A stretch of DNA of 64,000 bases from assembly GCA_963971285.1 (NCBI GenBank), contig OZ020260.1:4560798-4624797 (forward strand), written 5' to 3'. The notes beneath the pieces are model-generated. The model did no database searches and had not been told where the DNA came from. It saw only the letters and a program-made list of their open reading frames with translations. Position 1 is the first letter of the stretch. Each line of letters starts with the position of its first letter. Positions 1,747 through 44,646 of this stretch are shown in pieces. The stretch comes from Astropecten irregularis (taxonomy: Eukaryota; Echinodermata; Asteroidea; Paxillosida; Astropectinidae). A program made the translations under genes and the position numbers.

Positions 1747-4700
1747 CTAGCACAGCTCGTACACTTCCTCGTAGTAGCAGCCTTCGTGGCAGCACTCCTC
1801 AGTCAGACTCCTCTTTTCGATTCCTCTCTTCAAGAAGCTGTTCGCCTCCTCGCCTGCAGAATGATTGAGACAAAAGAACGCACGATCCCGCCATAATTAT
1901 CCACAGGGAGACATTTCTGAATCGAGGTCCAACTCATTCAAAAAGGTTCATGAATAGTTACCGAACAATGGCCTTAAGTGTATTAGCGATTGCGGACGTT
2001 ATACAAGTCAGGTTGCCGTCATGTATGTATTCGAAAGTGAGTGTGAGCGAACATTGACATACAATTTGTTTTTGAAATTTGAATAAGTTGAACCACTTGA
2101 AGGTGTTTTTGGTGTTTTTTATAAGAGACCACATTCATCCTGCTTTCATCTAGTCCATTAAAAAAATTCATATAAAATATTTACCGCAAAATGACATAAA
2201 GGATAAGCGATTGCGGACGTTATACAAGTTAGGTCGCCGTCATTGTGTGTATTCGAAAGTGAGTGTGAACGAACATTGACATACACTTTTTTTAAGAGAC
2301 CACATTCATTCTGCTTTCATCTAGTTCATGAAATGTTTTTTATACACAAGGACAAATCGTATACATTTGGAGATTTCATCAAAATCGGCGTTTATAACTA
2401 TTCAAAATTAAAGCGCTTCACATCATGTCATACTAATAGTACATACTGCTTTCCAAGAACGGATGGTGTCTGCAACCACAGAGTTGGGACTTGCGGTTGT
2501 TCAAGGTGGTGCCGCACCAGTAGTTTCTAGGGGATCGCTTCTCCAATCCAGGGTTGTTCATGCTGAAACAAACCAACAGTTTCATGAAGCCATAAGCAGG
2601 CGCGGTTCTACGGGGGGACTAGGGGGGGCTGTAGCACCCCCAACATTTTGTCTAGCCCCCCCAAAAAAATGCAAGTGAAAATTTTTTTTTATTGAAAGTA
2701 CTGGATTTTTTCAGTTATTAAGCGCAAATTACATAAAAAACGCGTTGTGCGGGCTATAATGTGCATGTTTTTCGACCCCTAATATGACATAGCAGAAGCG
2801 AGTGTTAGAAGAACCCAAAATATTGAGTCTTCTAGCCCCCCCCCCCAAAAAAAAAATTGGCTCTTCTAGCCCCCCCAAAATTTTGACTCTAGAACCGCGC
2901 CTGGCCATAAGTATTCATGCTTACGGAAGTACGGAAGCTTAAACTGACCATCCGAGTTTCCGAGATCATTATCTCAGAAAGGCGTATTGGAAAGACGTCA
3001 TTCTGAGATATTGGGATTTGGAAGATTCTGAAGTCTGAAGCAACGTCTGTCCGAGATGCGACATCGGGGAAAGACGTTTTTCCGGAGATAATTATCACTG
3101 AATCTCGGACATTCGGATGGTCACTTTAAGCTTCCGTACCTGCCAATATTTTTTATAAGATTTTATGTACATTTATTAATAGCGAAACCGTTCCACAATG
3201 TTTTTCTCATATATCTTCACTGCACACTGCGGGCGATCCTCAAAAGTTGCCATTGGCCTACGTGTATACACATGATTATTACAGCATACACTTAAAAGTA
3301 GTATCATACTTTGGTATTGAAGTTGATAGAACATCTGCGGTCTGTTCATAATTTGATTTGTCATTGAATAAAAACAGACCTGTGAAATGTTCAGCTCAAA
3401 TGGAAACAGTAGAAAACAGCGAAAAACCGTATTTTTTGTACTAAAGGCATAGACCTAGACCTATACTTACAGGATTTCCCTCATTTCCACGAGCATTCCA
3501 CACCTGGAGTCAACATCGTCATTACCAGAGACTGGATACCAAAGGAAAGAAAAAAAACGAATATTATTAGGCTATGACACGCCGACAAATACAGCACGGG
3601 CCGATTTCACGAAGCCCTACGATCGATCGTAACTCGAGTAACGAAGGATAACCCATGGTATCCTACGTAGGGCTGCAATGCATCGCAATACGTCCTACGA
3701 TTGGTAGTAAGTTACGATGAGGTTGGTGAAATCGACCCCAGAGTTGTTAATATAAGCAGTCTATCCACCATGAGCACCATGACCATCTTTTTCACATCGT
3801 CTGTCGCAGAAAACAAGAGTTTGGTTAACTGTTCAAAACGACACCCATCCACTTCCTATACCCGAGTTCGAAAAATTATAATTCTTCACTATTAACCATT
3901 GACAAACTTCAACGGCACACGGCAAACGTCATTTTATCGAAAACAAATCATAATTTAAAGGTAGTATCATACTTTGGTTTTTGTCAAAGAAATACAAATT
4001 CATGGACATAAATATCAAGGAAGATACAATAAAAGTAATCTGTGAAAATTTCAGTCCCATACGGTGCCCACTTTTTGAGTAAACTTTTTGATCTTTTAAA
4101 AGATCAAAAAGATTTCCGGTCGTAGTTTTACTAATTCCAGGCGGAAGAATGTTAACGGTATGTCTACCACCACCATCTCCATATCCTGTACGTTATACGT
4201 AAATCTGTGAACATTTCTGTTTTGGTCTCTTACCAAAGTATGATACTACCTTTAAAGAATGTGTAATTCCGTTTCAATTTAGGAATTGTGTCACGATTGT
4301 AACGACTGTCAAATGCGTCTTGTCTTGTCAACGCTGTTTAAACCCGTGATATACTCAAAATATATATTTAAACAGTGCCCAATTTTCACAACTGGAGGTT
4401 AACACACAGTTTGACATCGTGGCGTAAAAGGACATGTACAATATTGGTAACAAACCAAAACAGGAATGTTCACAGACCTACATATAACTTACAGGGTATT
4501 AAGACAGTACTGATAAAAGCATACTGCGAACATTGTTCTGACTGAAATGCAAAAAAGAGTAAAACCAAACACCAAAACAATTTTTTGATCTTGAAGAGAT
4601 AAAAAAAAAATGAGACAGCTATTCCCATACAATTTGGTGTAACAATCGCATTGGTTTTTCGTTGTTTTCTACTGTTTTAAATGATTAATTGAGCTGAAAA

Positions 4701-4983
4701 TTTCACAGGTTTGTTTCAATTCCATGACAAATAGAGATATGAGCAGCTCGCAGCCGCTGTAACATTTACCAATGTTGTACACGCCCTTTAAATGGTATTA
4801 TCTTCTCTTAAAGGGGAACTACTATAAACCGATGCCCCAATCCCAAACCACAGTCACTAAACATTCGTTTCGCCTATACATCATCAAGTTCGTTCCCAGT
4901 ATTTAATTTAATAGCTTGTACTGTAGCTTACCCTGGTACAACACGACCATAGCCAGGACAGCGAAGATGAGTACACGGTTCAT
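1747..4983 (-). CDS. Insulin-like peptide precursor, eight-cysteine type (ILP-A)
   Basis: Secreted peptide hormone precursor of the insulin superfamily, 111 aa in four exons: 4983-4932, 3531-3471, 2562-2447, 1853-1747 (phases 1, 2, 1; all GT-AG). Exon 1 is a signal peptide beginning MNRVLIFAVL. Exon 2 carries VDSRC (Cys28). Exon 3 is the B chain, YWCGTTLNNRKSQLCGC (Cys54, 66, 68; C-x11-C spacing). Exon 4 holds the dibasic site EKR and the A chain ECCHEGCYYEEVYELC (Cys97, 98, 102, 111; CC-x3-C-x8-C). Six cysteines match the insulin pattern; Cys28 and Cys68 are an extra pair. A second Lys-Arg (GLEKR) lies between Cys28 and the B-chain core. Paralogous exon by exon to the genes at 10266 and 17918. 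Receptor unknown; the relaxin RxxxRxxI cassette is absent. Introns carry several transposon copies. The assembly is inferred by eye, without transcript support. Confidence 0.92.
1981..2335. repeat. Duplicated block in ILP-A intron 3
   Basis: Direct duplication, about 1981-2160 and 2205-2335: TAGCGATTGCGGACGTTATA, then AAGT(C/T)AGGT(T/C)GCCGTCAT, GTATTCGAAAGTGAGTGTGA and TAAGAGACCACATTCAT. The second copy lies about 110 bp beyond the donor of exon 3. Non-coding. Confidence 0.75.
2597..2904. mobile_element. hAT-like MITE, CAGGCGCGG family
   Basis: Perfect 14-bp terminal inverted repeats, CAGGCGCGGTTCTA and TAGAACCGCGCCTG, flanked on both sides by the 8-bp direct repeat GCCATAAG. An 8-bp duplication with a CAG...CTG terminus is typical of hAT transposition. 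The interior is non-coding and dominated by C runs following TAG (TAGCCCCCC). It sits in ILP-A intron 2. A decayed relative lies at 15140-15445. Confidence 0.88.
3290..3440. mobile_element. Fragment of the GGTAGTATCATAC family (variant)
   Basis: Begins with AGTAGTATCATACTTTGGTA, then AAGTTGATAGAACA, CTGTTCATAATTTGATTTGTC and GTAGAAAACAGCGAAAAA. The same sub-variant recurs at 7304-7560. Only the left half is recognisable here. Lies in ILP-A intron 2. Confidence 0.65.
3598..3738. mobile_element. Foldback element, GTCGATTTCAC family
   Basis: Ends in GGCCGATTTCACGAAGCCC and, inverted, GTGAAATCGACCCC, with the internal motif CGTAACTCGAGTAACGA. Other copies: 23607-23745, 45837-45980, 56060-56155, and a split copy at 60915-61325. 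About 140 bp, non-coding; in ILP-A intron 1. Confidence 0.75.
3959..4251. mobile_element. TTAA-flanked MITE (GGTAGTATCATAC family)
   Basis: Starts AGGTAGTATCATACTTTGGT and ends with the inverse, ACCAAAGTATGATACTACCT; TTAA directly abuts both ends. The centre carries the palindrome TTGATCTTTTAAAAGATCAA. Right and left halves differ, so this is a normal full copy. Located in ILP-A intron 1. TTAA flanks suggest piggyBac-type mobilisation, but no transposase is seen. Confidence 0.85.
4430..4795. mobile_element. TTAA MITE, divergent subfamily (ACATGTACAA ends)
   Basis: Left end AAAAGGACATGTACAATATT followed by GGTAAC; right end the inverse, ACCAATGTTGTACACGCCC followed by TTTAAA. Internal blocks (ACAGAAATGTTCACAG-like, GAGTAAAACCAA, TTTGATCTT) are shared with the main GGTAGTATCATAC family, so it is a sister subfamily with different termini. 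Lies in ILP-A intron 1. Confidence 0.7.
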
Positions 4984-5057
4984 GCTTGCAAGGTTAGAGG
5001 TTGCCACACGTCATCAAAACACAAACACAGTGAGTTCACTGCTCTGCAGAACAGGCC

Positions 5058-5066
5058 TTTTTATAT
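5058..5066 (-). promoter_or_regulatory. TATA box of ILP-A
   Basis: Minus strand reads CATATAAAAAGG, with TATAAAAA about 75 bp upstream of the ATG at 4983. The other two insulin-like genes have a TATA box in a comparable position, which supports both the start site and the gene call. Confidence 0.65.
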
Positions 5067-5499
5067 GCACTGTGATTAAGAGGCGAGGGGCAATAAAACA
5101 TGTATTTGTATGCAGTGACTGTAGCTGGAGATATTCAAATGAGCAAATTTGAATATCACGTGTCTTTATATCAAGCTCATGAATTATGCAAATGGCGTCG
5201 ATTTTGATGAGTGAAGACTGACTGTCCGTAAACGTTTCCGGTGTGGGAGGTATAGGCCCACACCATATTTATTAAATTTTGTAGACCTGTCATCATTTTT
5301 TTATACACGTTTTGTGTTATCTAAAAAATCAGAAAGAACTTTGCGAAAAGAACACGCTATGGACAGATAGTATACACACAGAAATGCAACATTTAACGTC
5401 AATATTATAACACAATATTATTGAACAGGATAATCATCAAAAATCTAAAACTGTATCTTCTTCTCATCTTCAATGATCCTTGGGATATAGCGGCATGTG

Positions 5500-5690
5500 A
5501 GTGGTTTCATGACTTCTGACTGCCAAACGAACAAAGATAATTAGGGACTCTGATGCCAACATAATGCTGGGTGGTGGTGGCTCAGTTGGTAGAGCGCCCG
5601 TACGGCATATTCCGGAAATCGTTGGTTCGAATCCCGCTCCAGTCAATTTTTCTTTGTTCACTTTTCAATGACAAGTTCAGTTGGTTTCCC
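5500..5690 (+). repeat. tRNA-derived SINE-like repeat
   Basis: Contains TGGCTCAGTTGGTAGAGC (A box and D arm) and GGTTCGAATCCCGCTCC (B box), preceded by CTGCCAAACGAACAAAGATA and followed by TTTCTTTGTTCACTTTTCAA. Acceptor and anticodon stems do not pair, so it is not a functional tRNA. The same flanks recur at 24050, 47060 and 48450 (plus) and, inverted, near 61600 and 61990, so this is a dispersed family. Confidence 0.8.
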
Positions 5691-5941
5691 TTGTGGTTAC
5701 TTGATGGTCATTTATTTCTGTTAGACAATGTGGTACAAATTATCGGCCTGGTTGATGAAGAATTTGGCTCGTCACCGCACAGGACCGCAGACCGTAGTCT
5801 TCTGGTCACCTGCCACATGCAATGAATAGAAAACAAAGTTTGAGCTTTCTTAATCTACTTTTAGACCGAATTAAACTCCACAAGTAATTAACTGTTGCAA
5901 ATTTCTCACCAGACAAAACAAAAAATTAACTCAATATAAAA

Positions 5942-6268
5942 TACTTGGAATTAGGAGGCCTGACGTTGCGATCCAAGCAGGCTCTTTCTCAAAGGATAAA
6001 CAACAAAAGGACAAGTTGCGCGTTCTTGCATGTTCTTGTCCTCTTGTCATTTAGCCTTTCAGAAAGATCCTGCTAGAATCGAACTCCAAGTGACCTGAAA
6101 TAATATGAAAATACTTGGCATTAGTAGGGTCTGATGTTTCGATCCTAGCAGGCTCTTTCTCAAAGGATAAACGACAAGAGGACAATGTTCTTGCATGTTC
6201 TTGTCCTCCTGTCATTTAGCCTTTAAGAAAGATCCTGCTAGGATCGAAAAGGCCCTCATAACTCCAAG
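5942..6268. repeat. Two tandem copies of the CCTAGCAGG foldback repeat
   Basis: Copies about 5942-6100 and 6108-6268. Each has CGATCCTAGCAGGCTCTTTC near one end and, inverted, GAAAGATCCTGCTAGGATCG near the other, with internal AAAGGATAAACGACAAGAGG and an inverted TTGTCCTC...CATTTAGCC. Further pieces at 9645-9710, 40045-40165 and 49310-49380. Confidence 0.75.
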
Positions 6269-7303
6269 CGTATTAAACTCTGTTAAATGCCATAGAAGTT
6301 TCATGAACATACCCAAGCCAAGGCTGTTGGTACTCCACTCCACGAGGTTAACAAATCCACTGAAGAGATAGATAACCTCTCAAGTGATTATAAGCCCTGA
6401 ATTTGGTCTTTTGAGTGCGTTATAAAGCACCAAATTTGATAGCTTAGAGCTGAATAGAGACATTAATTTCAGGGCCAGCGGATATTGAATTTAAAGTCGA
6501 CTCCAGATTATGCTGGTAGTTTTCTTTTTAAAGTTGACGAACGAGTAAAACGACCCTGTATTTATGTTTTCAATTAACCGGTATAATTATACAAAAACAA
6601 TTTATATTGACTTTTATCTCTCTTATTGAAAATTGACCAGCATTACCATTTTAACTGCGGTTGAATGAGTTATACTCTTAAAGGATAATTGCAGCCCGGC
6701 TAATTAGAATAAAAACCTTGAAAGTAATGATAAGCTTGGGCCATCGGCTTCGATCGATTAATATTTGAATGGACTAAATGAGGGGGAAAAACAAAGTTTG
6801 GCAAATAAAGTTGACAAAACTTTAATGGAGAAAACAAAAACAAATTGCACCCTTTTACCAAATCATTATTATTCCGGTGCAATTTTCAAACACGTTTTTT
6901 ACACCTGTGATTTTATTGGTTGCCATATTTTATGCCCTATAATTTGAGAAATATCTCGACAAAAAATCGTCTGTAATATTAACGAATAAGAATTGGAGGC
7001 AGTGTCCAAATTCATACTAGTCATTACACGTCCCTTGATAAGTTTGTCAGGCCCACCTTCTTCATGATTGCGACTCAGTTTGGTACTTGATTTCATTGAC
7101 TGAATGCCACTTTTCGATTTTCACCCCCTCCTGTTTCCTGAAACCTAGATCCGCCCCCGTTAAGCTTGGTTAATCTCTCCAGAACTATTCGCAAACTGAC
7201 CCAAAGATCAGTACGCTGTACGTTGCCAAATAAAGATATAAAAGTATATACTCGTCAATTCCCATCATGTTCACAGTATAAATTCTAAATCGTTCAGTTA
7301 TCA

Positions 7304-7560
7304 AAGGTAGTACACTACCATACTTTGATAAAGTTGATAGAACAGCTGCAGGCTGTTCATAATTTGATTTGTCATGGTATGAATACAAACTTGTGAAATG
7401 TTCAGCTCAATTGATCATTGGAAACAGTAGAAAACAGCGAAAAAACGTTGCAATTTATTGTTACGCGAAATTGTAAAGTACATGACAATTGTGAGGTTTT
7501 GATCTCGGAGATCAAAACTATTTTCGATCTTTTTGTTTTACTCATTTCTGGATACGTACT
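7304..7560. mobile_element. GGTAGTATCATAC-family fragment
   Basis: Starts AAGGTAGTACACTACCATAC and continues with the same sub-variant blocks as 3290-3440, then TTTTGATCTCGGAGATCAAAA as central palindrome and TTTTACTCATTTCTGG. The right terminus is missing. Confidence 0.65.
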
Positions 7561-8241
7561 CATTTCTGGAGTTTATCGGCTTTTGTAAGGTTGGTTGCTA
7601 TATTTAATGTATATTTAAGCTTGTTTTTATAGCGCAGGTACTGAGCATATATATTGAAACATTTTGTGTGACCTTATAATCTAGCACAACTATTAAGGTA
7701 ACAATTTAATTTGTCCTTAATAAAAACAAAAATCTTGACGAAACTCGAAAACAAATTATTAGTTTCATTTTATGTTTAGTAAACGATTTATATTTTCAAG
7801 GGCGCCACTTCAACAAAAATGCCGGTAGACAATTAATCGACTCTATCTAAAACAGCTAATTACTTTTTGTTAATTACCATTCCAAGTGCATTTCAATTCA
7901 ATGCAAACATCCAATTAGTTATAAAATAAGCACCAAAATGACAACCAGCACATTTTCCCGCCATTATGACACCGAATCATAATTTCATTTGACCTTGTGA
8001 AAACCTTTTCAGCAGAAATAGAAGTGCCAAAGCGATTAATCTTTAATTGTGTGGTTGTGCTATACATTTCTACTGGCTTAATTAGTTTGTTTTTCAACTG
8101 TTTACTTGTGCAATCATTCTATTTTTACAGGATTGGTCGACAAAACTTACGCCAAATGGAAGAAATAGTTTCTTGATAAATTTGATTTCCTTTGCTGTTT
8201 ACACTTTATTTATAATATGTAAACCGCAGTATGTAAAACTT

Positions 8242-8451
8242 TAAGGTACTATCATACTTTGGCAGCATACCGAAACAGAAATCATCGCAGATTTACCTGT
8301 AACTTACCTGTAACTTAATAAAGATTGCGATGGTAGAAACATGCCGTTAAGATATGTCTGCCTAAAATGCTGTATTTATCCAGAAAAGAGTCAAACCAAT
8401 GGCCAAAAACAATGTTGATCTTTTGAAGATAAGAAAAAATAATCGGGATAA
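8242..8451. mobile_element. GGTAGTATCATAC-family left half
   Basis: TTAAGGTACTATCATACTTT followed by CGAAACAGAAATC, GATTTACCTGTAACTT, GATGGTAGAAACATGCCGTT and CTGTATTTATCCAGAAAAGA. It stops at the central GATCTTTTGAAGAT block, where a second element in the other half configuration begins. Confidence 0.7.
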
Positions 8452-8822
8452 AAGGTAGTAACATACTTTGGTTTTTATCAAGGAAATACAGATTCATGGG
8501 CAAAAATATCAAGGAAGAAACAGTAACAGTCATCTGTGAAAATTTCAGTCCCATACGATGCCCACTTTATGAGAAAACAGTGAAAAACAGCCACAGTATT
8601 TCTTAAGTCTTTTCTCTTTGATCTTTTAAAAGATCAAAAATAAAAGAGAAAAGACTTAAGAAATACTAAGGCCATTTTTCACTGTTTTCTCAAAAAGTGG
8701 GCACCGTATGGGACTGACATTTTCACAGATGACTTTTACTGTATCTTCCTTGATAATTCTGATAATTCTGCCCATGAATCTGTATTTCTTGACAGAAACC
8801 AAATTATGATACTACCTTTAAG
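8452..8822. mobile_element. Snapback palindrome made of two inverted right halves
   Basis: Both arms are the right half of the TTAA MITE: GGTAGTAACATACTTTGG... running to CTTTGATCTTTTAAAAGATC at the centre (about 8636), then the same sequence inverted to TATGATACTACC and TTTAA. The arms are about 180 nt each with only scattered mismatches, so a transcript would form a long hairpin. Confidence 0.85.
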
Positions 8823-9299
8823 AGGACTTTGGTAACTCGTTTATCACTAAGGACAATAAGGATTGTAAAGCGCATTCACATGGTAGCGACCCCACACAGA
8901 CTTGTCCTGCAATTCGGGTTTTGTTCTGACATTTGGATCACAATTCATTTCGCCCCAAACATTACCGTTTTAAAAGCACATGTACATGCAAATAATATTT
9001 TTTAATAACGTTTTATTGATTCTGTGTTCGGGCTCTAGCGAAGAAGCAGGCTGTCACGATGTATCACCGTAACACTGGGTGAGTTTGCCCCAAAAAACCT
9101 TTGATTAAAAAACCGTCAGTTGACTTGCCCCTGCCCGATTTGTACACGTCTGTCATCTCGACAGCATTTTTGTAAATAACCAAACCAGTTAATAACGTGA
9201 TTTCTCTATATTATAGAGAAATCACGATGCTCAAAATACGAATCAAACTGCGACTCCTGTGAAAACCAGCTATCCCTGCCCGCCTTGTCTCCTACGCAA

Positions 9300-9405
9300 A
9301 CGCCAAATATACAATTTGTCATCTTTGGTGGGATTCGAACCAGGGACGCCCGGAACTCAATCAACACAAGAATTCCCTGCTGGGAGCCAGGTTTACCCTG
9401 CATGC
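9300..9405 (-). repeat. tRNA-like repeat
   Basis: The minus strand contains CCTGGTTCGAATCCCACC (B box) preceded by about 60 nt including ATTGAGTTCCGGGCG. I see no clear A box or acceptor stem. Probably a tRNA-derived SINE remnant. Confidence 0.4.
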
Positions 9406-10172
9406 CCACTAATACCGAAATATGCTGACATTTTCAAGACACAAAGAAAGATTTTAATTGTAAATCCTAACATTGACGACAAAACATTTGAGAATTCAAT
9501 ATCGGGACCAAGATTTTACAATACCAGATTTCATAAATTATGGAATATGAAATTATGAAATTCGATCAGAGAAAGAACAATCACCGGAGAGGGTGGCGAA
9601 TAATGTTAAGGTTGGAGTTAAAAACTACGGTAAACATGCTTGGAGTTAGGAAGGCCTGACGCGTTTCGATCCTAGCAGGATCTTTATCCAAGGCTAAAAT
9701 GACAAAAGGACACAGAAGAAACATAGTTGGATTCTTAATAATCAATCTCTGATAATTTGATAACTGCTTCGAACTATAAAAGTACAGACCGTCATATCAT
9801 TCAATGTACTTTCATCAAGATTCACCAGGATGGTCTTGGTGTATCTTTTGAACAAATTTCAAACAAATATTAAGTTTCAGTGGTGTCATAGTTTGCCAAG
9901 GATGTAAACACGTGATAACTTCTGTCGTTCTCGAGGTTAAACGTGACCTAGTTGGGACGGTTCATAAAGGTAAACGATTGGCTCGCTGAAATGGCGCCAC
10001 CGTACCTTAATTTGCATAATTATGGGCGGGAGTTAACATACCTGTCAGCTCATTCGTGCAGGGTTGCGTGATGGGGTGACTTTTTCTCGCCCGGTGAGAT
10101 GCGCAGACGTTCGAGAGATGCCATCTAATGATTGCACACCGTCTATCAAGGGGCCCTTAGGCCTTTAGGTCT

Positions 10173-10180
10173 ATATAAAG
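10173..10180 (+). promoter_or_regulatory. TATA box of ILP-B
   Basis: TATATAAAG about 90 bp upstream of the ATG at 10266, followed by CACACTG and a CAGTCTCTAC stretch where transcription could start. Position matches the TATA boxes of the two paralogues. Confidence 0.7.
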
Positions 10181-10265
10181 TCACCGAGTCGCCCTGGTTG
10201 GTCACACTGTTCGGGGTTTCTCCAGTCTCTACAAGCAACCGTGCACCGCTCGGCAATCAGACACC

Positions 10266-12713
10266 ATGAATCAGTGGCTCGTGGGCTTGCTACTCTGCGC
10301 CTGTGTGGCAGTCATTCTTGCAGGTAAGCACACCAAGTTTGAGTCGGGTGATTTGTCATTATTTGACTTGCAATGCACTCCCAATATTGGCGGGAAACCT
10401 TCTTTGTATTTTCGGTCACTGCCAATAGTTTGCACTGATAAAATAGTCGGGTCGTTGCTGTTTGAAGTTGTTGAATTTAAATGTAGTAGTATACTTCGAG
10501 CCAATGGCACCCCAAATTGGTGGTGCAAGCCGTGACGGTGTCGGTGGTACGTGCTATCTATTTCGACCATGTCCATCAGCAAGTGGTTTGAGGTTCGTTA
10601 TGAGGACTGTCGTATAATAGTAACGGTGCATGTCTTCATACTTGCCGTCCATATTTACGATGCGCAGTAGGGGCGCCAGCGGGTCTATCACGGTGTCATA
10701 CTCCACTGTGTTGAAGTTGATTCATAATGTATAGAATGGCTGCAGATTCACTCCTCTCGTAATCTTTTTCGATGCCTGACGCGTAGGACCGGCACGGCAG
10801 CCACAGCCGCCGGCCTGACAATGATTGCATCATTGGGCAAGACGCTTTGTCACATATTGCTCCTCGTCGCCCAGGCGTAAATGGGTACCTGCGAGGGTAG
10901 AGATGGCTTTGTGGTTTGATTAGCCTCTGTGCACTGAATATGGTAGCCGGGGCTGTATACTCCCCAGGGAGTTGAGATGGTTTCAGGAATGTAAAATATG
11001 GCTCGATGACCAGGGATAATAACATATTTGTATTGCGCAGTAGAGAGCATATTCATAATAGTAGCTGCGCAATTTATTCTGAACTATGCCTTCAAAACAG
11101 CCGACAAAAAAAATCAACAAAACCCTAAAACTATGATTGCCAGTTGCATGAAAAATTATGACCAGTCGCAGTACATCCAGCGCAGAAACGGTGGGTGAGA
11201 ATGTGATCTTTTGAAAGAGAACTTAAACTTGGACCACGCCAAGTTCTGTTTGCAAGTTTAAGGGGCTGACATCTTCATTACTGAACTTTATTATTTTTTT
11301 TTTACTGACTTTGGACATTTCAGAAAAGGAGCAAAACATCGACAAAGCCGTCTGCGAGGCCCTGGCTTTACAAGTCAAGACAGAAGGGTAAGTCGTCTTA
11401 AGATGCTTGCGATGTCTCCCTAACATTTGTCGATGTCAGAGGGACGTGTCGTTACCTTTAAACGCGTTGGCCAATCACAATTCAGTAAATGCGCATGTTT
11501 TCACATGCGCAGTTTGTGGACAAAATTAATGCCACGCATTGTGATTGGCCAACCTGTTGCAAACTCATGGTGGCGCACTATTTTATTGTGAATCGCCCGA
11601 ACTGCACTGTCGGTGGGGTGCCTGGGCTTTGCACATGTGGTTATTTGATGAGTATGAACTGATCTTTACTGATATAAGTTATTGTTGCTTCTGCATGTCC
11701 TGTCAGACATTTTCCTTTAAAGCGATTTAAGTTTTAAGTTGTGTGCTCTCCCCCATTTCAGCAAGAAGCGATGGGACGGTCCGTCGCATAGGTTCTGTGG
11801 ATCCACTCTGACCGCAAAGCGCAATGCCTACTGCAACTGCCAAGTCGTGCCCAGAAAGAGAGAGTTCAGGCTTTCAGGTAAGATCATTTACGGAGCATCT
11901 CCACGAATGCCTTTCCTACGGTGCTCCACGAGTGCCATTCCACTTATCCAGATAACCACATAATTTATCTCGCCAAGTTGATTTATCAAGCCTTAAAAGT
12001 CAACTCGACTTATCGAGACATTTCCGGGCAAGATGAATAAGTAAAAACTAAGAGGTCGACACTATCCTGATAATTTTACTTCTCGCCAAGACGACTTACT
12101 GAAACAAATTATGTTGACATGTTCTGATAATTAAAACGCAAAGTCGACTTACTGAAAGGAGAGAGTTGACCTCTCCTAATAGTGGAATCGAATCATAGGG
12201 CGTTTACGAAACGCCGGAGGCTCAGGCTCAGGCTCCGGCTCCATTTCGTGAATCTATTCTAAAATAAAGGGTATCAAATTAGAGGCTTTTGGCTGCGGTT
12301 CGGAAGTTGATTGTCTGGTTTGAAAAAACAAAAACAGAGCTTCAGCTTCAATGAAAAACCACAACCTATATTTTCAGCATATTGAATGACGGAGTTGGAG
12401 CCTAAGCCTGAGCCTGGGCCTGAGCCTGAGCCTCCGTTTCGTAAGCCCCCATAGTGACCGATTGACAGACTGTGACCGTTCATTGCAGAAGACGGTCAGC
12501 ATTTGCAGTCAAAACTAATATCAATCTGTCCACTTGGAGTGAAGGCCTAAATAACTAAGTGTGATCTGATTATTTTTTTTCATCTCGACAGAGTTCCTTC
12601 CTTCGGCCAAGGCTAATAACTTCCTGTCAGGCCGTGGCATAGCCAAGAGAAGCCTGTCTGAGGAATGCTGCAACGAGGGTTGCTACTGGGAGGAAATTGA
12701 GGAGGTCTGCTAA
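10266..12713 (+). CDS. Insulin-like peptide precursor, eight-cysteine type (ILP-B)
   Basis: Secreted insulin-superfamily precursor, 119 aa in four exons: 10266-10323, 11324-11387, 11762-11877, 12592-12713 (phases 1, 2, 1). Signal peptide MNQWLVGLLLCACVAVILA. Exon 2 has IDKAVC (Cys30). Exon 3, the B chain, has RFCGSTLTAKRNAYCNC (Cys53, 65, 67) preceded by a KKR site at the exon junction and followed by PRKRE. Exon 4 has GIAKRSL, then the A chain ECCNEGCYWEEIEEVC (Cys105, 106, 110, 119). The phase-1 intron between B and A is the one typical of insulin genes. The start is favoured by its TATA box and hydrophobic leader. Six cysteines follow the insulin spacing; Cys30 and Cys67 are extra. Closest to ILP-A across the A-chain exon. 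Introns contain two foldback elements. Physiological role cannot be read from sequence. Confidence 0.93.
11455..11601. mobile_element. Foldback element, CCAATCACAA family
   Basis: GTTGGCCAATCACAATTC on the left, GCATTGTGATTGGCCAA then GGTGGCGCACTATT on the right. Lies in ILP-B intron 2. The left outer arm is shorter than in the copy at 1014-1205. Confidence 0.75.
12198..12450. mobile_element. Foldback element, GTTTACGAAAC/GGCTCAGG family
   Basis: Left arm GGGCGTTTACGAAACGCCGG then repeats of AGGCTC; right arm GAGCCTCCGTTTCGTAAGCC. Related copy at 22185-22420 and a single arm at 17380-17412. Lies in ILP-B intron 3. Confidence 0.75.
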
Positions 12714-12913
12714 GCCTCTTATACCAGGAGGAACATGGATATCATCGGATTGAACGGACTTTGATACCGAATCAAGGAATTCTCGCTTACCCTTTTTCGG
12801 CTTTTGCTTTTGTTTCTTTTGGTTTTTTTTCTGCTTAGCAAAATCGGAAACTTCAATTATAGTTTGGATTTAAAAGAATGATACCTTATATATTATTTTA
12901 AAGATTAAGACAA

Positions 12914-13350
12914 GGGGTGCGTTCCGCTTACGCGAACGTTGCCAACGTACGCCAACGTTTGCAAACAATTTCGGGTGGAACGAGTTGTGCGCCGCCAACG
13001 TTGGCGGGCGTTAGCAACAATCCGCGAACATATTTCTGAGATGTTCGCGGATCATTTAAAAATGGCCGATACTTCCAAGATGGCGGAAAAGTAAGTAGAC
13101 GACGAATTGTTTTTATGACGAAAGTAAAAGGAAGTAGGCCTAGAAAGTTAAGATTGAACATTTAATATTGCAATCTCCTCAATTATTTGGGATGCGGCAA
13201 GCCATACAATTTCATAACTACTGTCACTAGTGTCACGACTGGACGCCGCCATTTTGACGTTGTGTTGCCGGCGCGCTCACAATCGGTTCCGGTTGTACGC
13301 AAACGTTGCCGCTAACGTTGAGACATGTTCGCGCAAGCGGAACGCAGCCC
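12914..13350. mobile_element. Foldback element, GTGCGTTCCGCTT family
   Basis: GGGGTGCGTTCCGCTTACGC at the left and GCGCAAGCGGAACGCAGCCC at the right; internal AACGTT-rich blocks. It lies between the ILP-B stop codon and the AATAAA at 13605, so it may be transcribed inside the ILP-B 3' UTR. Confidence 0.75.
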
Positions 13351-13604
13351 AGGTATGTAGTGAAACAAATACTGAAAACTTGATGGTGCATGTTATTTTG
13401 GAAAGGTATATATTAATCAATGGCAAAATGCTGCCTCAATGACACTACCTAATTAACTGACCCGTTACTTTGCTGTGGCCGTAATTTTGAGCTTATGATT
13501 ATTTTTATTAATTGATCTCGAAATATACTAGATTTGACGTTTTGATTTCGAACCAAATTTTATTTGTACAAATGTAAAATTGATGCCATGTGTATAAAGG
13601 TGTG

Positions 13605-13610
13605 AATAAA
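13605..13610 (+). promoter_or_regulatory. Polyadenylation signal, probably ILP-B
   Basis: AATAAA in TGTGAATAAAATGC, about 890 bp after the stop codon at 12713 and the first canonical AATAAA I noticed in that interval. If used, the 3' UTR includes the foldback element at 12914-13350. Confidence 0.45.
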
Positions 13611-13860
13611 ATGCAAAACAGTGATCTTCCATACGATTATACAGCTGGTGATTTAATTCAATGCAAAATTGAAGTCTTTGGTGAAAAGGGATTATAAATT
13701 TTCGTCATTCTTGATGCAAGTTTTTTTCTCAGACACTTCGTGCATGACGTCTCGCCCCAGGAGACACCGTGCCACTTTCCAATAAGCCTTTTGCACATTA
13801 AATCTGAATAAGTATCTGGTACACAGACTTCTTTAATCTCACATAAACACCCCAGTTTGA

Positions 13861-13928
13861 ATTTCACAGACTAAATATACACTGTTGTTATACACGTGAT
13901 ATAGCAACAGTGTCTTAGTCTGGGAAAT
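13861..13928. other. Imperfect hairpin between the convergent ILP genes
   Basis: The left arm ATTTC-a-CAGACTAA...CACTGTTG pairs with CAACAGTG..TTAGTCTG-g-GAAAT across a loop of roughly 17 nt. Each arm is about 25 nt, a size compatible with a small-RNA precursor, but no family is recognised. It lies between the polyadenylation signals of ILP-B and ILP-C. Confidence 0.45.
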
Positions 13929-14016
13929 GGCGTCATCAAAACCCCTCAAACACTATTGAAAATAAACTCACAACATGAAACGGCTCATTTGTATGTTCAT
14001 TGTAAAAAATTATCAA

Positions 14017-14022
14017 TTTATT
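14017..14022 (-). promoter_or_regulatory. Polyadenylation signal, probably ILP-C
   Basis: AATAAA on the minus strand about 400 bp past the ILP-C stop codon (14426). Together with the AATAAA at 13605 it would leave about 400 bp between the two convergent 3' ends. Confidence 0.4.
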
Positions 14023-14425
14023 TGAATTTACAATCTGCAGCAGCTGTATAAATTAACTAAAAACTACAATCCACAACCCTTAGTATATTAAATTACATCA
14101 AATTGAAATAATTATGTGCACAACGGCCCAATTTGGATCCTTGCTAGAGTTTCTTAAAATAGACTTTCAAAAGAGAAGTGTTAATACGTCATCTGACACG
14201 GTAAATCCCGTGCACCTTTTCTCTTTCAACACATCGCAAAATACCCCTTTTCTCTTTAAAATCATTACAGTTTTGGCCGTTTTTTGGAAGGAAGGAAGAA
14301 AGAGTCCACCATGCATGTAAATTCAGTGAAAACAAAAGCCCCAGCTCTGTTAATTCGACTCGCCATTTTGTCGAGTCATCATCGTCGTGTTTCTTCTTTC
14401 ATTCAAGTTCCTGTCTGCAAACTCA

Positions 14426-17400
14426 CTAGCAGTAGTTTGCCAGCTCGTCCCAGTAGCAGCCCCACACGCAGCACTCATTGTGGAGGGATCTCTTGCTGAC
14501 ACGCCCGTTTAAGAATGACAAGGCTTTCTTCCGAGAACGGAATTCTGACGTAAAGAGATAAGAAAAAGAGAAGACGAAACGTTTTATTTTGCAGTCATTT
14601 CTGGTGTATGTTTAAAGGTAATGTCTTGTGGTCTTGCGAAAGTGCATTAACCATTTTTCCCTCAAGAAAAATTTGAGGCTTTGCAAAGTGACAATTGCTA
14701 TGTGGATTGGTTTGCTGAAACACCATAATGTAAGAACCGTACGTACTTTCGCACTTCTATTTCGTTCGCACTTCTCGTAAAGTCTTAACGTTTCGACTAG
14801 CCTGTGTTAGCCCTCATCATCAGGCTAGTCGAAACGTTGAAACCAGGGCCCAATTTCATGGAATCCGTTATCGTTAGGAAAAATTCTTCGCTTACGGTAG
14901 CAGAATTTGTTTGGTTACGGTTAGCGTATTTCACGGAAGGGTTTCCCTTTTGGTAACGGTAAGCAAGGAATTTGTGCAGAATGCATACGACAGCCCGTTA
15001 GCAGTAAATGATCAGGGTTACCCTAGAAATTCTTCGCTAACCGAGAGTCTTGCTTACGGATTCCATGAAATAGATTACAACGCGTAGCAGTGCCCGTAAG
15101 CACAAAAATAGGCTGTAACAGATTCCATGAAATTGGGCCCAGGTGCGGTTCTACGGGGGGGGGGGCCCAAAAATGTTGTCTAGCCCCCAGAAACAATGCA
15201 CGTAGAAAATAATTCTTGAAAATAATTGATTTTTGTCAGTTACCAAGCGCCAATTACATAAAAAAAAAACCGTTGTGTGGGCTTTGTGCATGTTTTTCGA
15301 CCTCTAATAAGACATAGCAGAAGCGAGTGTTAGAAGAACCCAAAATATTGGGTCTTCTAGCCCCCCCCCAAAAAAAAAAAAAAATTATGGCTCTTCTAGC
15401 CCCCCCCCCCCCCAAAAAAAAGAAGAAGAAATATTGGCTCTAGAAATTGAAGTGCGAAAGTACGAACGATTTTTACATGGTGATTCCGCAAAACCGATCC
15501 ACATAATTTTTCCCTCCTAAAATTCGAGGATTTGCGCGTGCATTCTTACCCGAAGCGGTCGGTACCGGCACAACATTACAGCCACAGTAAGCCTCCCTGA
15601 CCTCCTCAAGGTAGGCATCGCAGAAATAATGTATCTGGCCAACAGACTGGGTAGTCATCCTTCGAATCCATGCAAAATCAAATAACAGATAGCAGTTAGC
15701 ACAAATCGAACATAGTTTGATAATTCCTTGTCTATTATACATAATACGGTAACCTTTTGGAAAAGATCGGGGGCCAATTTCACTTCCCTGCTTAGCACAA
15801 AAATTAGCTAACCATGAAATTTCTGTCTTAAGGGGGTATCTCATTGAGCGGCGAATGCTTTATACGAACATTGCGAATTTTGGATTCGCCAATTTCTGAC
15901 GAATGTTGGCGAGTGGAGTGGAGGGGATGGTGTTCTGCCTCGGCCGGGAACTCGGCATGGACCTCCCCTGTCCCCCAAGGGGTCTTAAAGCTAGTATCTC
16001 ACTGAGCGGCGAATGTTTACTGTTTAAGAAATTTCTTGCAACCTTTTTACGAACCCTGGCGAAATCTCAAATTCACTACGTTCGCAAACATTCGCCGCTC
16101 AGTGAGATACCCCCTTTAATAAATACAGGATTAACAAACTAAATTCCCATGTGTTGTGTATCACTTGTGATTGTTCTTTGGCTGTTTTTCGCGGACCATG
16201 AATATCAAATGGAATTGTTAATGGTGGTTTGTTAAGTTGAGCAAGATATTTTGTGCTAAGCACAGTTTTTTGTGCTGAACAGCTCCATGAAATTGGCCCC
16301 AGTAGGCACAGTGGAGTGGAGATGAGGATTTATATATAGCAATGGTATTGGAAGTCTCGTGTTAAAGGTAGAGTACAGAATTTGTAACATAATGTTTCAG
16401 TGTATGAAGATGGTGCTGGTAGAAGCATTTCATTTTGAAACATTTTCTGTATCTTATGAGAAATTAGTCAAACAAAGACCGAAAACAGTTTTGATCTCGG
16501 GGTAAGATAAAAAGCATTCCTTTTTTTGTTTACAAGAAAAACAATTAGTCGGGTTTTCGATATTTTCTCGCGACTCAGAATGTCCAATTGAGCTCAAATT
16601 TTCACAGGTTTGTTATTTTATGTACATGATGGATTAGACAAGTATGAGTGCTGTTCTGCGATCTTTACCAATTGTGTATTAAGGTCTTCGTCGGACATAA
16701 TGAATTTATTATAGTCCACTCACCTTTCTGCCTTGATCCGAGTGGCCAGCGCCGAACACGTGGCGTCGTCGACGGTGACGCTCCCTGAAACGTCAGAAAA
16801 GAGTTATGTCAGGTAACAGCAGCTATATTGCGACTCATGGTGTCACTGACTTTAGGCCTACTTACTTTACCGCCTTTATATTAAATGGACAAGTTTGGAA
16901 CTTTTATGCCAGTTCTTATTTGAGAGTCTAAATATAGCCAAATGGTTCGTTCACATGAAACAAGTTATGTTCCCGCAGCTAGGTATCCGTGCGATTCGCA
17001 GGCAGGTAGTATCATACTTTGAGACCAAAACAGAAATGTTCACAGATTTACGTATAATTACTTACAGGGTATGAAGATGGTGGTGGTAGAAACATACTGT
17101 TAAAATTGTTCCGCCTGGAATGGTGTATACAGTATATCCAGAAATTTAGTAAAACAACGACCTAAAATCTTTTCGATCTTTTAAAAGATCAAAAATAAAA
17201 GAGAAAAGACTTAAGAAATACTGTGGCCGTTTTTCGCTGTTTTCTCAAAAAGTGGGCACCGTATGGGACTGAAAATTTGTACAGATGACTATTACTGTAT
17301 CGTCCTTGATATTTTTGCCCATGAATCTGTATTTCTTTGAGAAAAACCAATGTATGATACTACCTTTAACACAACACTAAGGGCGTTTACGAAACGGAGG

Positions 17401-17918
17401 CTCAGGCTCTCCCTATTCCTCCCACAATGCAACGCGCTAAACGAACCGTGACGTCATTAAGACATAGGTCTATTAGGCCTATAATAGCACAAACATAGGA
17501 TGTAACTTTTCGATTTAAACAACGTTTAAGTTAAATATCATTTTTTTATTAGTCGTGGTTTTGCTTTTTCAAAAGTAGCGTGGGTCTACGCCAACTGCAT
17601 CTAACCAAATCTACATGTACTTATTAAAAAACGTCAAAAAACCTATAAGACTTGGCAATCCGTTTGGTGAGCTTCACAGACCCACATAGTACAGACCAAG
17701 AAAAAAAACCCAATCAACCCTCCCCAAAACACAACTCAAAAACAGGCTACGTTTTTCTTCTGACAGATTGCAAAAAAGCCTATAAACCCCGACAACAAGC
17801 GTTCTCTTTGATAAGTGTTTCCTACTCTCTAACTTTATTTCACTTGGGACACACTCAGCTTACCTGCCACCGCCAAGACGAGCGCACAAAACCACAGAGC
17901 GAGCACAAAGCGAGTCAT
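14426..17918 (-). CDS. Insulin-like peptide precursor, eight-cysteine type (ILP-C)
   Basis: Insulin-superfamily precursor, 114 aa in four exons: 17918-17864, 16784-16724, 15659-15550, 14544-14426 (phases 1, 2, 1). Signal peptide MTRFVLALWFCALVLAVA. Exon 2: VDDATC (Cys28). Exon 3, B chain: YFCDAYLEEVREAYCGC (Cys52, 64, 66). Exon 4: SRKK and SKRSL processing sites, then A chain ECCVWGCYWDELANYC (Cys100, 101, 105, 114). The open frame continues upstream to an ATG at 18092, but the TATA box at 18032 and the hydrophobic leader favour 17918. Unlike its paralogues it has no dibasic site between Cys28 and the B-chain core, and its B chain (Leu, Val, Glu, Tyr) looks more insulin-like. The exon-3 acceptor (GAAG) has a weak pyrimidine tract and is the least certain junction. 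Introns are full of nested transposons. Confidence 0.92.
14846..15140. mobile_element. Foldback element, GGGCCCAATTTCATGGAATC family
   Basis: Perfect terminal inversion: GGGCCCAATTTCATGGAATC at the left, GATTCCATGAAATTGGGCCC at the right; interior with AATTCTTCGCTTACGG and its inverse. Non-coding MITE nested in the foldback at 14615-15530. Confidence 0.85.
15140..15445. mobile_element. Decayed hAT-like MITE (CAGGCGCGG family)
   Basis: Starts CAGGTGCGGTTCTACGG and carries the same interior as 2597-2904: TTGTCTAGCCCCC, AAGCGAGTGTTAGAAGAACC and long C and A runs. The right end stops at GGCTCTAGAAATTG, so the terminal CGCGCCTG is lost and no target duplication can be shown. Confidence 0.75.
15769..16300. 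mobile_element. CTTAGCACAAAA foldback interrupted by a TTAA MITE
   Basis: Left piece 15769-15831 (GGCCAATTTCA, TGCTTAGCACAAAAATTAGC, ATGAAATTTCTGTCTTAA) and right piece 16116-16300 (GTATCACTTGTGATTGTTCT to AGCTCCATGAAATTGGCCCC). Removing 15832-16119 restores a family member like the copies at 32215 and 57795. In ILP-C intron 2. Confidence 0.85.
15832..16115. mobile_element. TTAA MITE, GGGGGTATCTCA family
   Basis: Termini GGGGGTATCTCATTGAGCGG and CCGCTCAGTGAGATACCCCC, flanked by TTAA at 15828-15831 and again at 16116-16119. Since the host element normally has a single TTAA there, this is direct evidence for a TTAA target duplication. Internal duplicate of CTCACTGAGCGGCGAATG near 15997. Confidence 0.88.
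16360..16690. mobile_element. Divergent relative of the GGTAGTATCATAC family
   Basis: AAAGGTAGAGTACAGAATTTG, then GTATGAAGATGGTGCTGGTA, TTTTGATCTCGGGGTAAGAT, TGAGCTCAAATTTTCACAGG, ending with TTTACCAATTGTGTATTAA. A similar copy lies at 50695-51245. In ILP-C intron 2. Confidence 0.6.
17004..17365. mobile_element. TTAA MITE (GGTAGTATCATAC family), full copy
   Basis: Starts AGGTAGTATCATACTTTGAG, ends ATGATACTACC followed by TTTAA; central TTCGATCTTTTAAAAGATCA. The right flank is TTAA; the left flank (GGC) has lost it. In ILP-C intron 1. Confidence 0.82.
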
Positions 17919-18031
17919 CGGATAATGATGGTGCCAGATCATCCTCCGCGGGAAAACAGAAACGATGCAGCTAGTTGTTCCCCGGACCACACCGAAGAGA
18001 ACACTGCCAGGCCCCGTGTACTCACCGTCAG

Positions 18032-18038
18032 TTTTATA
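18032..18038 (-). promoter_or_regulatory. TATA box of ILP-C
   Basis: Minus strand TATAAAAC, about 115 bp upstream of the ATG at 17918. Parallel to the TATA boxes of the two paralogues; it argues against the upstream in-frame ATG at 18092. Confidence 0.65.
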
Positions 18039-18720
18039 GACCACCGTACATCCACTTGAAATTCTCCGCACTCGGAAGACAAAATACCTCAAGTGGTACC
18101 CAGCCTACGCTTCCGTTACTCGACACGGATGGCTGATTCGTGAACCAACTAAACTACGTATGCCATACCAGCAAATTTCACTGTCAATTTCCACAAGCAG
18201 GGACGACCGTGGTCCTTAATTATTACAGCAAAGCTGGGGGCTTAGTTTTCCGTTTTATGTTTAGATTTTGAAGACACCTTCAGGAGTGGGCTTGATGAAA
18301 ATTCAATTTCGTTGAAGGAGAAACTAATCCATACTGAGATTAGTTGAAGGCAACTTATTAACGATAAACCGAGCTATTTTGCTTTGCAATTGGCGCGACA
18401 TGACGCCACACTCAGGGCTAATGATCTCACGTAGGCCATAATCCATAAACTGTAGGTGAGAAGTTAATGGGTTTCTGATCATAATTATTATTTTTCACAC
18501 ACATAATAATTTTTTAACGTGCATGAAAAGGGCATTTAAACATTGGTAACAAAACAAAACAGAAATATTCACATATTTACGTAAAACTTACAGGGAATAA
18601 AGACGGTAATGATAGAAACATACTGTGATTTTCTTCTTGCCTGAAATGCTGTATTTATCCGGAAAAGAGTAAAATCAAAAACTGTTTTGAGCTTGGCAAG
18701 ATAAAAAAGACTAAAACAAC

Positions 18721-18833
18721 TAGTATTCCCAGACGGTCTCCCATTCAAGTACTAATCAAGCCCGATGTTGATTTACATCGGTGATCGGACGAAAACCGGT
18801 GTATTCAACGTAGTATGGTCATAGGCATTTACA
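18721..18833 (-). pseudogene. 5S rRNA-derived pseudogene or SINE fragment
   Basis: The minus strand reads as a diverged 5S rRNA: GCCTATGACCATACTACGTT, GAATACACCGGTTTTCGTCC, GATCACCGATGTAAATCAAC, ATCGGGCTTGATTAGTACTT, GAATGGGAGACCGTCTGGGA. Nearly the whole 120-nt molecule is present with roughly ten substitutions against the metazoan consensus as I remember it. It directly abuts a truncated TTAA element, so it is either a dispersed copy or the head of a 5S-derived SINE. Confidence 0.85.
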
Positions 18834-19887: not shown

Positions 19888-20096
19888 CCCGAACCCATTT
19901 TTGATCTTTTAAAAGATCAAAAATAGAAGTGAAAAGACTTAAGAAATACTGTTGCGCAGTTTTTCACTGTTTTCTCAAAAAGTGGGCACCGTATGGGAAT
20001 GAAATTTTCCCAGATGACTGTTACCGTATCTGTCTTGATATTTTTGCCCATGAATCTGCATTTCTTTGATAAAAACCAAAGTATGATATTACCTTT
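19888..20096. mobile_element. Right half of a TTAA MITE
   Basis: Starts at the central TTGATCTTTTAAAAGATCAA and runs through CTTAAGAAATACTGT, GGGCACCGTATGGGA and CATGAATCTGCATTTCTTTG to AAGTATGATATTACC and TTTAA. The left half is replaced by repeats of AACTGCGC and AAAAATGCAAAAT-type sequence. Confidence 0.75.
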
Positions 20097-34934: not shown

Positions 34935-35339
34935 ATGCGAGGGAATTTAGTGACCTTGCTGTGCGGTGGTGATAAGAACAACAATGCATCGTCGGCGTAT
35001 AACGACACTTTGGTGGACGTGGCCGGGAATTCGACCGTCGAGTCGGCGGAGGAATCGACGGGTTACGTCGGCGACCCCATGCTCTACATCCTGGTGGTGC
35101 TCCTCTTCTACGCCAGCAGCATCACCTTGTTCATGGTCAAGTACATTCGGAAGCAGAACGAGGAGAGCCACTTGGACAACGACTACAACACCTTTGTCAG
35201 GCAGGTGGGCTTCGACGAGAAACTGATGGAAGCCAAGAACAAAGCCGCCATGAGACTGAAGGAAATGGCGGCCGGTATAAATAAGCCAGCAGTAGTAGAC
35301 CCACCACTTCAGCAAGTAACAGTGACCAGTACTGTTTGA
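34935..35339 (+). CDS. KCNE-like single-pass membrane protein (potassium-channel beta-subunit family)
   Basis: Intronless 134-aa frame; an in-frame TAG at 34914 precedes the ATG, so the start is secure. The N-terminal 47 residues lack a signal peptide and carry three N-glycosylation sequons (N17-A-S, N23-D-T, N32-S-T). One membrane span, about residues 49-70 (MLYILVVLLFYASSITLFMV), is followed by KYIRKQNEESHLDNDYNTFV. The Y-I-R after the span and the H-x-x-(N)D-x-Y segment match the signature of vertebrate KCNE proteins (MinK/MiRP), which also have intronless coding regions, N-terminal glycans and 100-170 residues. The C terminus, TSTV, fits a class I PDZ ligand. KCNE subunits modulate KCNQ/KCNH channel gating at the plasma membrane; that role here is inferred from architecture and motif. 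The last codons belong to a repeat duplicated downstream. Confidence 0.72.
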   Translation: MRGNLVTLLCGGDKNNNASSAYNDTLVDVAGNSTVESAEESTGYVGDPMLYILVVLLFYASSITLFMVKYIRKQNEESHLDNDYNTFVRQVGFDEKLMEAKNKAAMRLKEMAAGINKPAVVDPPLQQVTVTSTV

Positions 35340-44524: not shown

Positions 44525-44646
44525 GGAGGGTCACAGATTAAGCCATCAAAACTACGGCATCCTTACAAAAAGGCTATAGAGCCTCTAGAGGTGACTCTTT
44601 GTCTGTTTTATTTATGCCGCAGGTTTTAATCCAGCAGCTTCGCAAG

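Follow-up and report, generated by a model that had tools for sequence, protein, structure and literature searches.

The question raised by this 64,000-nucleotide stretch of the genome of the sea star Astropecten irregularis (contig OZ020260.1, positions 4,560,798 to 4,624,797; hereafter the window) is whether the short coding exons scattered between its positions 1747 and 17918 make up genuine hormone genes and, if so, of which kind. An earlier note, made from the sequence alone, had described them as three paralogous insulin-like genes with matching exon structure. Our analysis indicated that these genes, here called genes 1–3, very probably form a cluster of three sea-star multinsulin genes encoding secreted hormone precursors. 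As judged from its sequence, the cluster is genuine, appears functional and belongs to an already published kind; what may be new here, as a tentative point, is a C-peptide resembling the propeptide by which clotting factors dock to the vitamin-K-dependent carboxylase.

The three models were rebuilt from the raw window sequence and then spliced, and their outer ends coincided with those of the earlier note. Three four-exon genes within 16 kb, each joining into an open precursor, were thereby re-derived (Table 1). All nine introns have GT-AG boundaries, the intron phases are 1-2-1 in each gene, the sequence KR-S-L (lysine–arginine, KR) stands ahead of the A chain in all three, and a TATA box was found for each, all as first described. 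Gene 1 has an additional TATA motif at -187 and gene 3 a second in-frame ATG 24 bases upstream; the pyrimidine tract of the gene 3 exon 3 acceptor is poor. On both strands of the window, the A-chain cysteine pattern occurs three times, always in genes 1–3, and the B-chain pattern four times, three of them in these genes. The fourth B-chain match, at 27685, is not insulin-like. A search for a fourth gene over 20 kb upstream of the window found no A-chain pattern.

The insulin-like identity, paralogy, shared gene structure and clustering of the genes were supported by database relatives, Pfam and alignment. In phmmer searches against a database of 5.8 billion sequences, gene 1 matched Patiria miniata LOC119720809 (71%, E 1.2e-50) and Acanthaster planci LOC110975798 (69%), the two matches at E ≤ 1 among two candidates. 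Gene 2 matched A. planci LOC110975792 (75%, E 4.7e-53), P. miniata LOC119719907 (74%) and a protein of Asterias amurensis (59%), the three matches at E ≤ 1e-3 among 35 candidates. With such E-values, the models of genes 1 and 2 cannot be products of chance, and all five matches come from these three sea-star species. Gene 3 shares 42% identity with gene 2 and keeps all eight cysteines. Insulin (PF00049) was the only Pfam family at E ≤ 1 in all five precursors scanned (gene 1, 17.2 bits; gene 2, 16.6; gene 3, 22.8; the annotated relatives P0001 and P0004, 21.1 and 16.0), which bears out the proposed similarity of the joined proteins to the insulin superfamily, though every score lies below the curated cut-off of 23. 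The family also matched all eight members of our alignment (genes 1–3 and five sea-star relatives, used also for the profile) at E ≤ 10, more than any other family did.

Eight cysteines are invariant across the eight aligned sequences. Two of them are additional to the insulin set; the first is in the front domain, the second stands two residues past the second B-chain cysteine, and they are predicted to pair as a fourth disulfide. KR precedes the A chain in all eight sequences, and a second KR separates the front cysteine from the B chain in seven. The second site reads GKKR-W in the gene 2 group (4/4) and EKR-SP or DKR-SP in the gene 1 group (3/3); in this genome its forms are LEKR-SPRN in gene 1 and GKKR-WDGP in gene 2, and gene 3 is without it.

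These features agree with the multinsulins, defined as a fifth insulin type of Asterozoa, closely related to dilp7, that usually occurs in multiple copies (Veenstra 2021; PMC8286064). According to the multinsulin passages of that paper, the genes typically have four coding exons and, besides the phase 2 intron that dilp7 also has, a further phase 1 intron; their products have KR sites, some carry two extra cysteines (a four-disulfide subset), and clusters occur in A. planci and Pisaster. The present locus matches this description in its four coding exons with introns 1, 2 and 1 in all three genes, in eight cysteines set in the insulin frame, in the KR ahead of every A chain and in three copies within 16 kb of an asterozoan genome. 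It differs in representing a further species and in having a third gene without a database relative; the same passages do not discuss the KR between front domain and B chain or any C-peptide motif. The cited part of PMC11863921 likewise uses the phase 2 intron as a mark of dilp7-type genes, which have it before the B chain and a phase 1 intron in the C domain, whereas the present genes have one phase 1 intron and one pair of cysteines more.

The history of the cluster was read from a tree of the eight sequences. Its single well-supported split (100/100) separates gene 1 and two relatives from gene 2, three relatives and gene 3, and the remaining four inner branches are open. Given this split, the duplication that produced genes 1 and 2 is old and preceded the divergence of these species. 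Both A. planci proteins list longest contigs of equal size (2,206,660), as do both P. miniata proteins (28,613,699), which suggests that the cluster is common to these species. The earlier proposal of tandem duplication with inversions held for paralogy, and the orientation of the genes (-,+,-) fits inversions, with the duplication of genes 1 and 2 dated as old. The accompanying expectation that automatic annotation could miss such genes did not hold for genes 1 and 2, whose counterparts are annotated in both A. planci and P. miniata, as uncharacterized proteins or under an insulin-like domain name.

Each precursor is read as opening with a signal peptide, followed by a short front domain that has one extra cysteine; next come the B chain (C-x11-C-x-C), the C-peptide and finally the A chain (CC-x3-C-x8-C). 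Three insulin-type disulfides would form in the secretory pathway, together with the predicted fourth from the front-domain cysteine to the cysteine behind the B chain, and convertases would then cut at the KR ahead of the A chain. If the second KR of genes 1 and 2 is also cut, their hormones would consist of three chains joined by four disulfides. The peptides would be released as hormones, most likely with the single insulin receptor tyrosine kinase as their target, which is what Veenstra infers for multinsulins (PMC8286064). The phase 2 intron in common with dilp7-type genes would speak for an LGR-type G protein-coupled receptor, the type used by dilp7, instead of a receptor tyrosine kinase; signalling by this route is unlikely because, according to the same author, the front-domain sequence of dilp7 has been lost (PMC8286064, in the part cited).

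Several observations weigh against the assignment of the three genes as functional multinsulins. The name multinsulin was assigned from gene structure, clade and the species in common, not from published multinsulin sequences, and none of the five Pfam scores reaches the curated cut-off. The bulky Trp after GKKR in gene 2 can hinder cutting under the cleavage rules given in PMC8286064. Gene 3 had no database match at E ≤ 1 among five candidates, it has lost conserved A-chain residues, and its branch is long (1.94), so that its placement in the tree is unsure. Together with the weak exon 3 acceptor, these traits mean that gene 3 could be decaying, in which case it would be a pseudogene and only two hormones would be made. 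A frame open across four exons, a TATA box, eight cysteines and a KR site make this outcome rather improbable.

The eight-sequence profile, made to test the insulin fold, gave a different kind of result when searched against the PDB. Proteins with γ-carboxyglutamate (Gla) domains took 16 of the 18 rows at E ≤ 1, rows 1–7 among them; they comprise entries of factor X, prothrombin (II), factor VII and protein C. The best was the factor X light chain (E 0.0018), followed by protein C (0.0023) and prothrombin (0.0065), and the relaxin-3 A chain (0.094) and insulin (0.21) ranked below them. The alignment pairs ANSFL...L-x-x-EC-x4-C-x2-EE of the two families, and F-L-P-S-A-K-A-N-N-F-L in the gene 2 C-peptide stands opposite F-I-R-R-E-Q-A-N-N-I-L in factor X, whose letters were confirmed. 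Clotting-factor propeptides bind γ-glutamyl carboxylase (GGCX) and have F, A and L at positions -16, -10 and -6. The multinsulin C-peptide fits this F-x5-A-x3-L spacing, and the A chains of genes 1 and 2 contain ExxxExC.

This match can be read functionally: the C-peptide would be a docking propeptide for GGCX, glutamates (Glu) of the A chain would be converted to Gla in the endoplasmic reticulum, and the KR cut would then remove the tag, as in clotting factors. In the cited part of PMC9146348, the propeptide is the usual exosite-binding part and is removed after carboxylation. We regard this reading as a minority possibility. The likeness to factor X, factor IX, prothrombin and protein C covers the docking motif, a C-x4-C loop with ExxxExC around it and EE after it, and a tag cut off at a basic site; the differences are that insulin-type chains stand in place of a Gla domain, that Pfam Gla gives no match and that, by our own count, the multinsulin motif lies about 8 residues nearer to the loop. 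A further caution is that the motif was defined after the PDB match, though that match has its own whole-database E-value.

Profile comparisons favoured carboxylation at the level of the family. In hhalign, the multinsulin profile matched seven human propeptide+Gla segments with a score of 34.7 (probability 87, E 4.1e-6). None of 250 column shuffles of the Gla alignment reached this score (maximum 19.6), nor did any of 250 shuffles with the cysteine columns kept (maximum 24.2), and the reversed alignment scored 13.8. A hidden Markov model (HMM) of the human propeptide+Gla segments, run over 2,879 six-frame segments of the window, placed exon 4 of genes 1, 2 and 3 first, second and third (E 0.002, 0.031 and 1.3). 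Single sequences told less in its favour. The best E-values of five shuffled sets were 0.85 to 3.8, so the gene 3 match is not significant by itself, and among single multinsulins the best HMM score was 16.0 bits (E 0.055 for 100,000 sequences, not significant). Human insulin, mature IGF1, IGF2 and the relaxin-3 A chain scored at most 0.5 bits, controls that probe mainly the A chain because the strings, insulin apart, hold no full C-peptide. Pfam Gla (PF00594) was not listed for any of the eight members at E ≤ 10, which counts against carboxylation, with the limit that HMMER filters drop most weak matches. Over the whole genome, Pfam Gla also gave nothing, in a search without a working control, and human factor X yielded no candidates in the genome, an uninformative result.

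The motif itself was scored with a position-specific scoring matrix (PSSM) of 13 propeptide positions in 11 sea-star sequences, namely the eight full multinsulins and three partial exon sets. One C-peptide site, 23 to 29 residues before CC, was best in all 11, and the residue six before the motif A is F in eight, L in two and S in one. Within-protein shuffles gave p from 0 of 4,000 to 0.018 for the eight multinsulins and 0.008 for the exon set C29A. When the PSSM columns were permuted, the observed mean over genes 1–3 and P0003 was reached in 0 of 3,000 with seven propeptides and in 2 of 3,000 with the four propeptides of confirmed letters. These results speak for a docking-like site, with the qualification that ANSFL can be aligned either to the propeptide or to the start of the mature Gla domain; hhalign chose the second, the PSSM tests the first, and the two tests are not independent. 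Other results count against it. Left-out real propeptides scored 12.0 to 23.2 and multinsulins 7.1 to 17.5, with only four of the eight inside the former range. Among all window positions, unspliced exon 4 of gene 1 ranked third (see Table 1 for genes 2 and 3), behind a second-ranked site of 12.65 bits at 14565, in another frame beside gene 3, which we regard as a chance site; a 60 kb sample from other parts of the genome (62,367 positions) gave 13.14, 12.79 and 11.77. Because chance sites in unrelated frames score alike, PSSM scores of 12 to 13 are not in themselves rare. Moreover, gene 3 keeps F, A and L in its weak motif but has two A-chain Glu and no ExxxExC.

The other insulin-like genes of the genome bear on the choice of explanation. 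Genome searches with the three precursors scored the best candidates only, so the counts are lower bounds: at least three further insulin-like A-chain exons were found (two on C29, one on C16), besides two weak matches on C15 and C14. On C29 (9891185-9908285; L006, L009-L012), two adjacent insulin/IGF-like genes, whose signal peptides are near-identical and which have Arg/Lys-rich parts, are perhaps the two echinoderm IGF genes. The C16 exon (9329199-9329324; L008, L013) has GCVWEEVAEYC and also F-x5-A-x2-F-L; we take it to be, perhaps, the candidate dilp7 ortholog of the genome. For this gene, 10 kb of sequence yielded no recognisable B exon. A whole-genome Pfam Insulin search gave nothing, and its controls also gave nothing.

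The A chains of the exon sets C29B and C16 are rich in Glu, yet both had non-significant PSSM shuffles (p 0.27 and 0.26) and weak HMM scores of 3.3, and the C16 exon retrieved no Gla protein from the PDB (E ≤ 10); each of these points counts against carboxylation. The A-x2-F-L core itself is present in all six non-RGP insulin-like A-chain exons found in the genome, including two with weak propeptide scores. This distribution favours another explanation, in which the A-x2-F-L-x-x-R segment of the C-peptide is a helix for folding or convertase presentation inherited from the dilp7/IGF lineage and merely propeptide-like, and the Glu-rich A chain serves receptor binding. The segment that we take to be that of fly dilp7 has A-N-x-F-L, scores -0.4 to 3.0 and finds no Gla protein in the PDB; no identical chain was found in the PDB, and its letters were found in no paper text. 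By itself, an inherited helix leaves unexplained why Gla domains are the best profile matches and why F stands six before A in eight of the 11 sequences.

The starfish GSS/RGP hormones share the insulin-superfamily cysteine frame, KR processing and a starfish host with the multinsulins, and differ in that RGP has one intron. The two RGP-like A-chain exons of this genome, C16:20133996 (E 2.8e-7) and C18:17142166 (E 0.023), have 0 and 1 A-chain Glu and no F-x5-A-x3-L docking motif by eye, and the C16 exon, the one scored, had a propeptide score of -5.9. These observations count in favour of carboxylation.

As machinery for carboxylation, the genome that holds the cluster has both carboxylase (GGCX) and VKOR genes. 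Pfam HTTM, the family to which the carboxylase belongs, has four matches on C28, and pieces joined there by eye (138 amino acids, part of the enzyme) match solved vitamin-K-dependent γ-carboxylase chains with E 1.9e-53. VKOR was found on C10 as two exon-like pieces (3.1e-6 each) and on C152 (185591-185968; L020) in an unbroken frame of 391 amino acids (1.3e-20); the latter might be bacterial contamination.

On balance, we lean towards the inherited helix over γ-carboxylation of the A chain. The fuller proposal, that sea-star multinsulins would be vitamin-K-dependent, calcium-binding hormones of the insulin family with a docking C-peptide, an ExxxExC A chain converted to Gla and possibly three chains, is doubtful at present. 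A limited search, with most subscription journals outside its scope, did not find such a carboxylase reading in print, and carboxyl, vitamin and propeptide have no occurrences in the main text of PMC8286064. Cone-snail venom insulins, which are venom components of a mollusc, are reported to include Gla-containing peptides of the insulin family; a search through the text of PMC10819828 found nothing to confirm this.

Table 1. Features of the multinsulin cluster, in window positions.
Feature	Positions	Strand	Details
Gene 1, multinsulin precursor, 111 aa	1747..4983	-	Coding exons 4983-4932, 3531-3471, 2562-2447, 1853-1747
Gene 2, multinsulin precursor, 119 aa	10266..12713	+	Coding exons 10266-10323, 11324-11387, 11762-11877, 12592-12713
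Gene 3, divergent multinsulin precursor, 114 aa	14426..17918	-	Coding exons 17918-17864, 16784-16724, 15659-15550, 14544-14426
TATA box, gene 1	5056..5065	-	-82 from ATG
TATA box, gene 2	10172..10180	+	-94 from ATG
TATA box, gene 3	18030..18038	-	-120 from ATG
Gene 1 A chain, 20 aa, after KR	1750..1809	-	6 Glu, ExxxExC present
Gene 2 A chain, 20 aa, after KR	12651..12710	+	7 Glu, ExxxExC present
Gene 3 A chain, 20 aa, after KR	14429..14488	-	2 Glu, ExxxExC absent
Gene 1 docking-like motif, exon-4 part	1825..1853	-	Spliced LESSEEANSFLKR; first residues from exon 3
Gene 2 docking-like motif, start of exon 4	12594..12632	+	FLPSAKANNFLSG; PSSM rank 1 of 65,631 window positions
Gene 3 weaker docking-like motif, start of exon 4	14504..14542	-	FRSRKKALSFLNG; PSSM rank 17

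Other features were recorded in and beside the cluster. A full-length 5S rRNA match (85.5 bits, 18708-18826, minus strand) lies about 0.8 kb upstream of the gene 3 start codon and may be a gene, a pseudogene or a 5S-derived repeat. A repeat whose ends are 'ggtagtatcatactttgg'-like, perhaps a mobile element of the non-autonomous type, recurs, as seen by eye, at about 3960-4250, 8450-8820, 16985-17370 and 19900-20000. Farther along, the plus strand carries a tRNA-Thr (GGT) at 24238-24310, a single open reading frame of 134 amino acids with a hydrophobic segment and weak KCNE/ISK likeness at 34935-35339 (Pfam ISK_Channel E 0.001, 19.2 bits, below the cut-off of 22.1) and a possible dual-specificity phosphatase exon at 44599-44943 (DSPc E 5.3e-5, 23.5 bits, below the cut-off of 33.5). 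An Integrator complex subunit 5 gene occupies 51252-59976 on the same strand, with the Pfam N-terminal domain at 51252-51593 and the C-terminal domain at 59542-59976 in separate frames.

With this cluster, the multinsulins gain a further species and a divergent copy. Drosophila GGCX is active and accepts human propeptides, and no classical Gla protein is described in flies, according to the cited part of PMC12112360. Because the motif core is also present in the dilp7- and IGF-like exons of this genome, insulin-related peptides could be ancestral carboxylase substrates of invertebrates. If the C-peptide does dock to the carboxylase, vitamin K would be tied to insulin-type signalling in an invertebrate, and the question of what invertebrate carboxylases act on would become testable.

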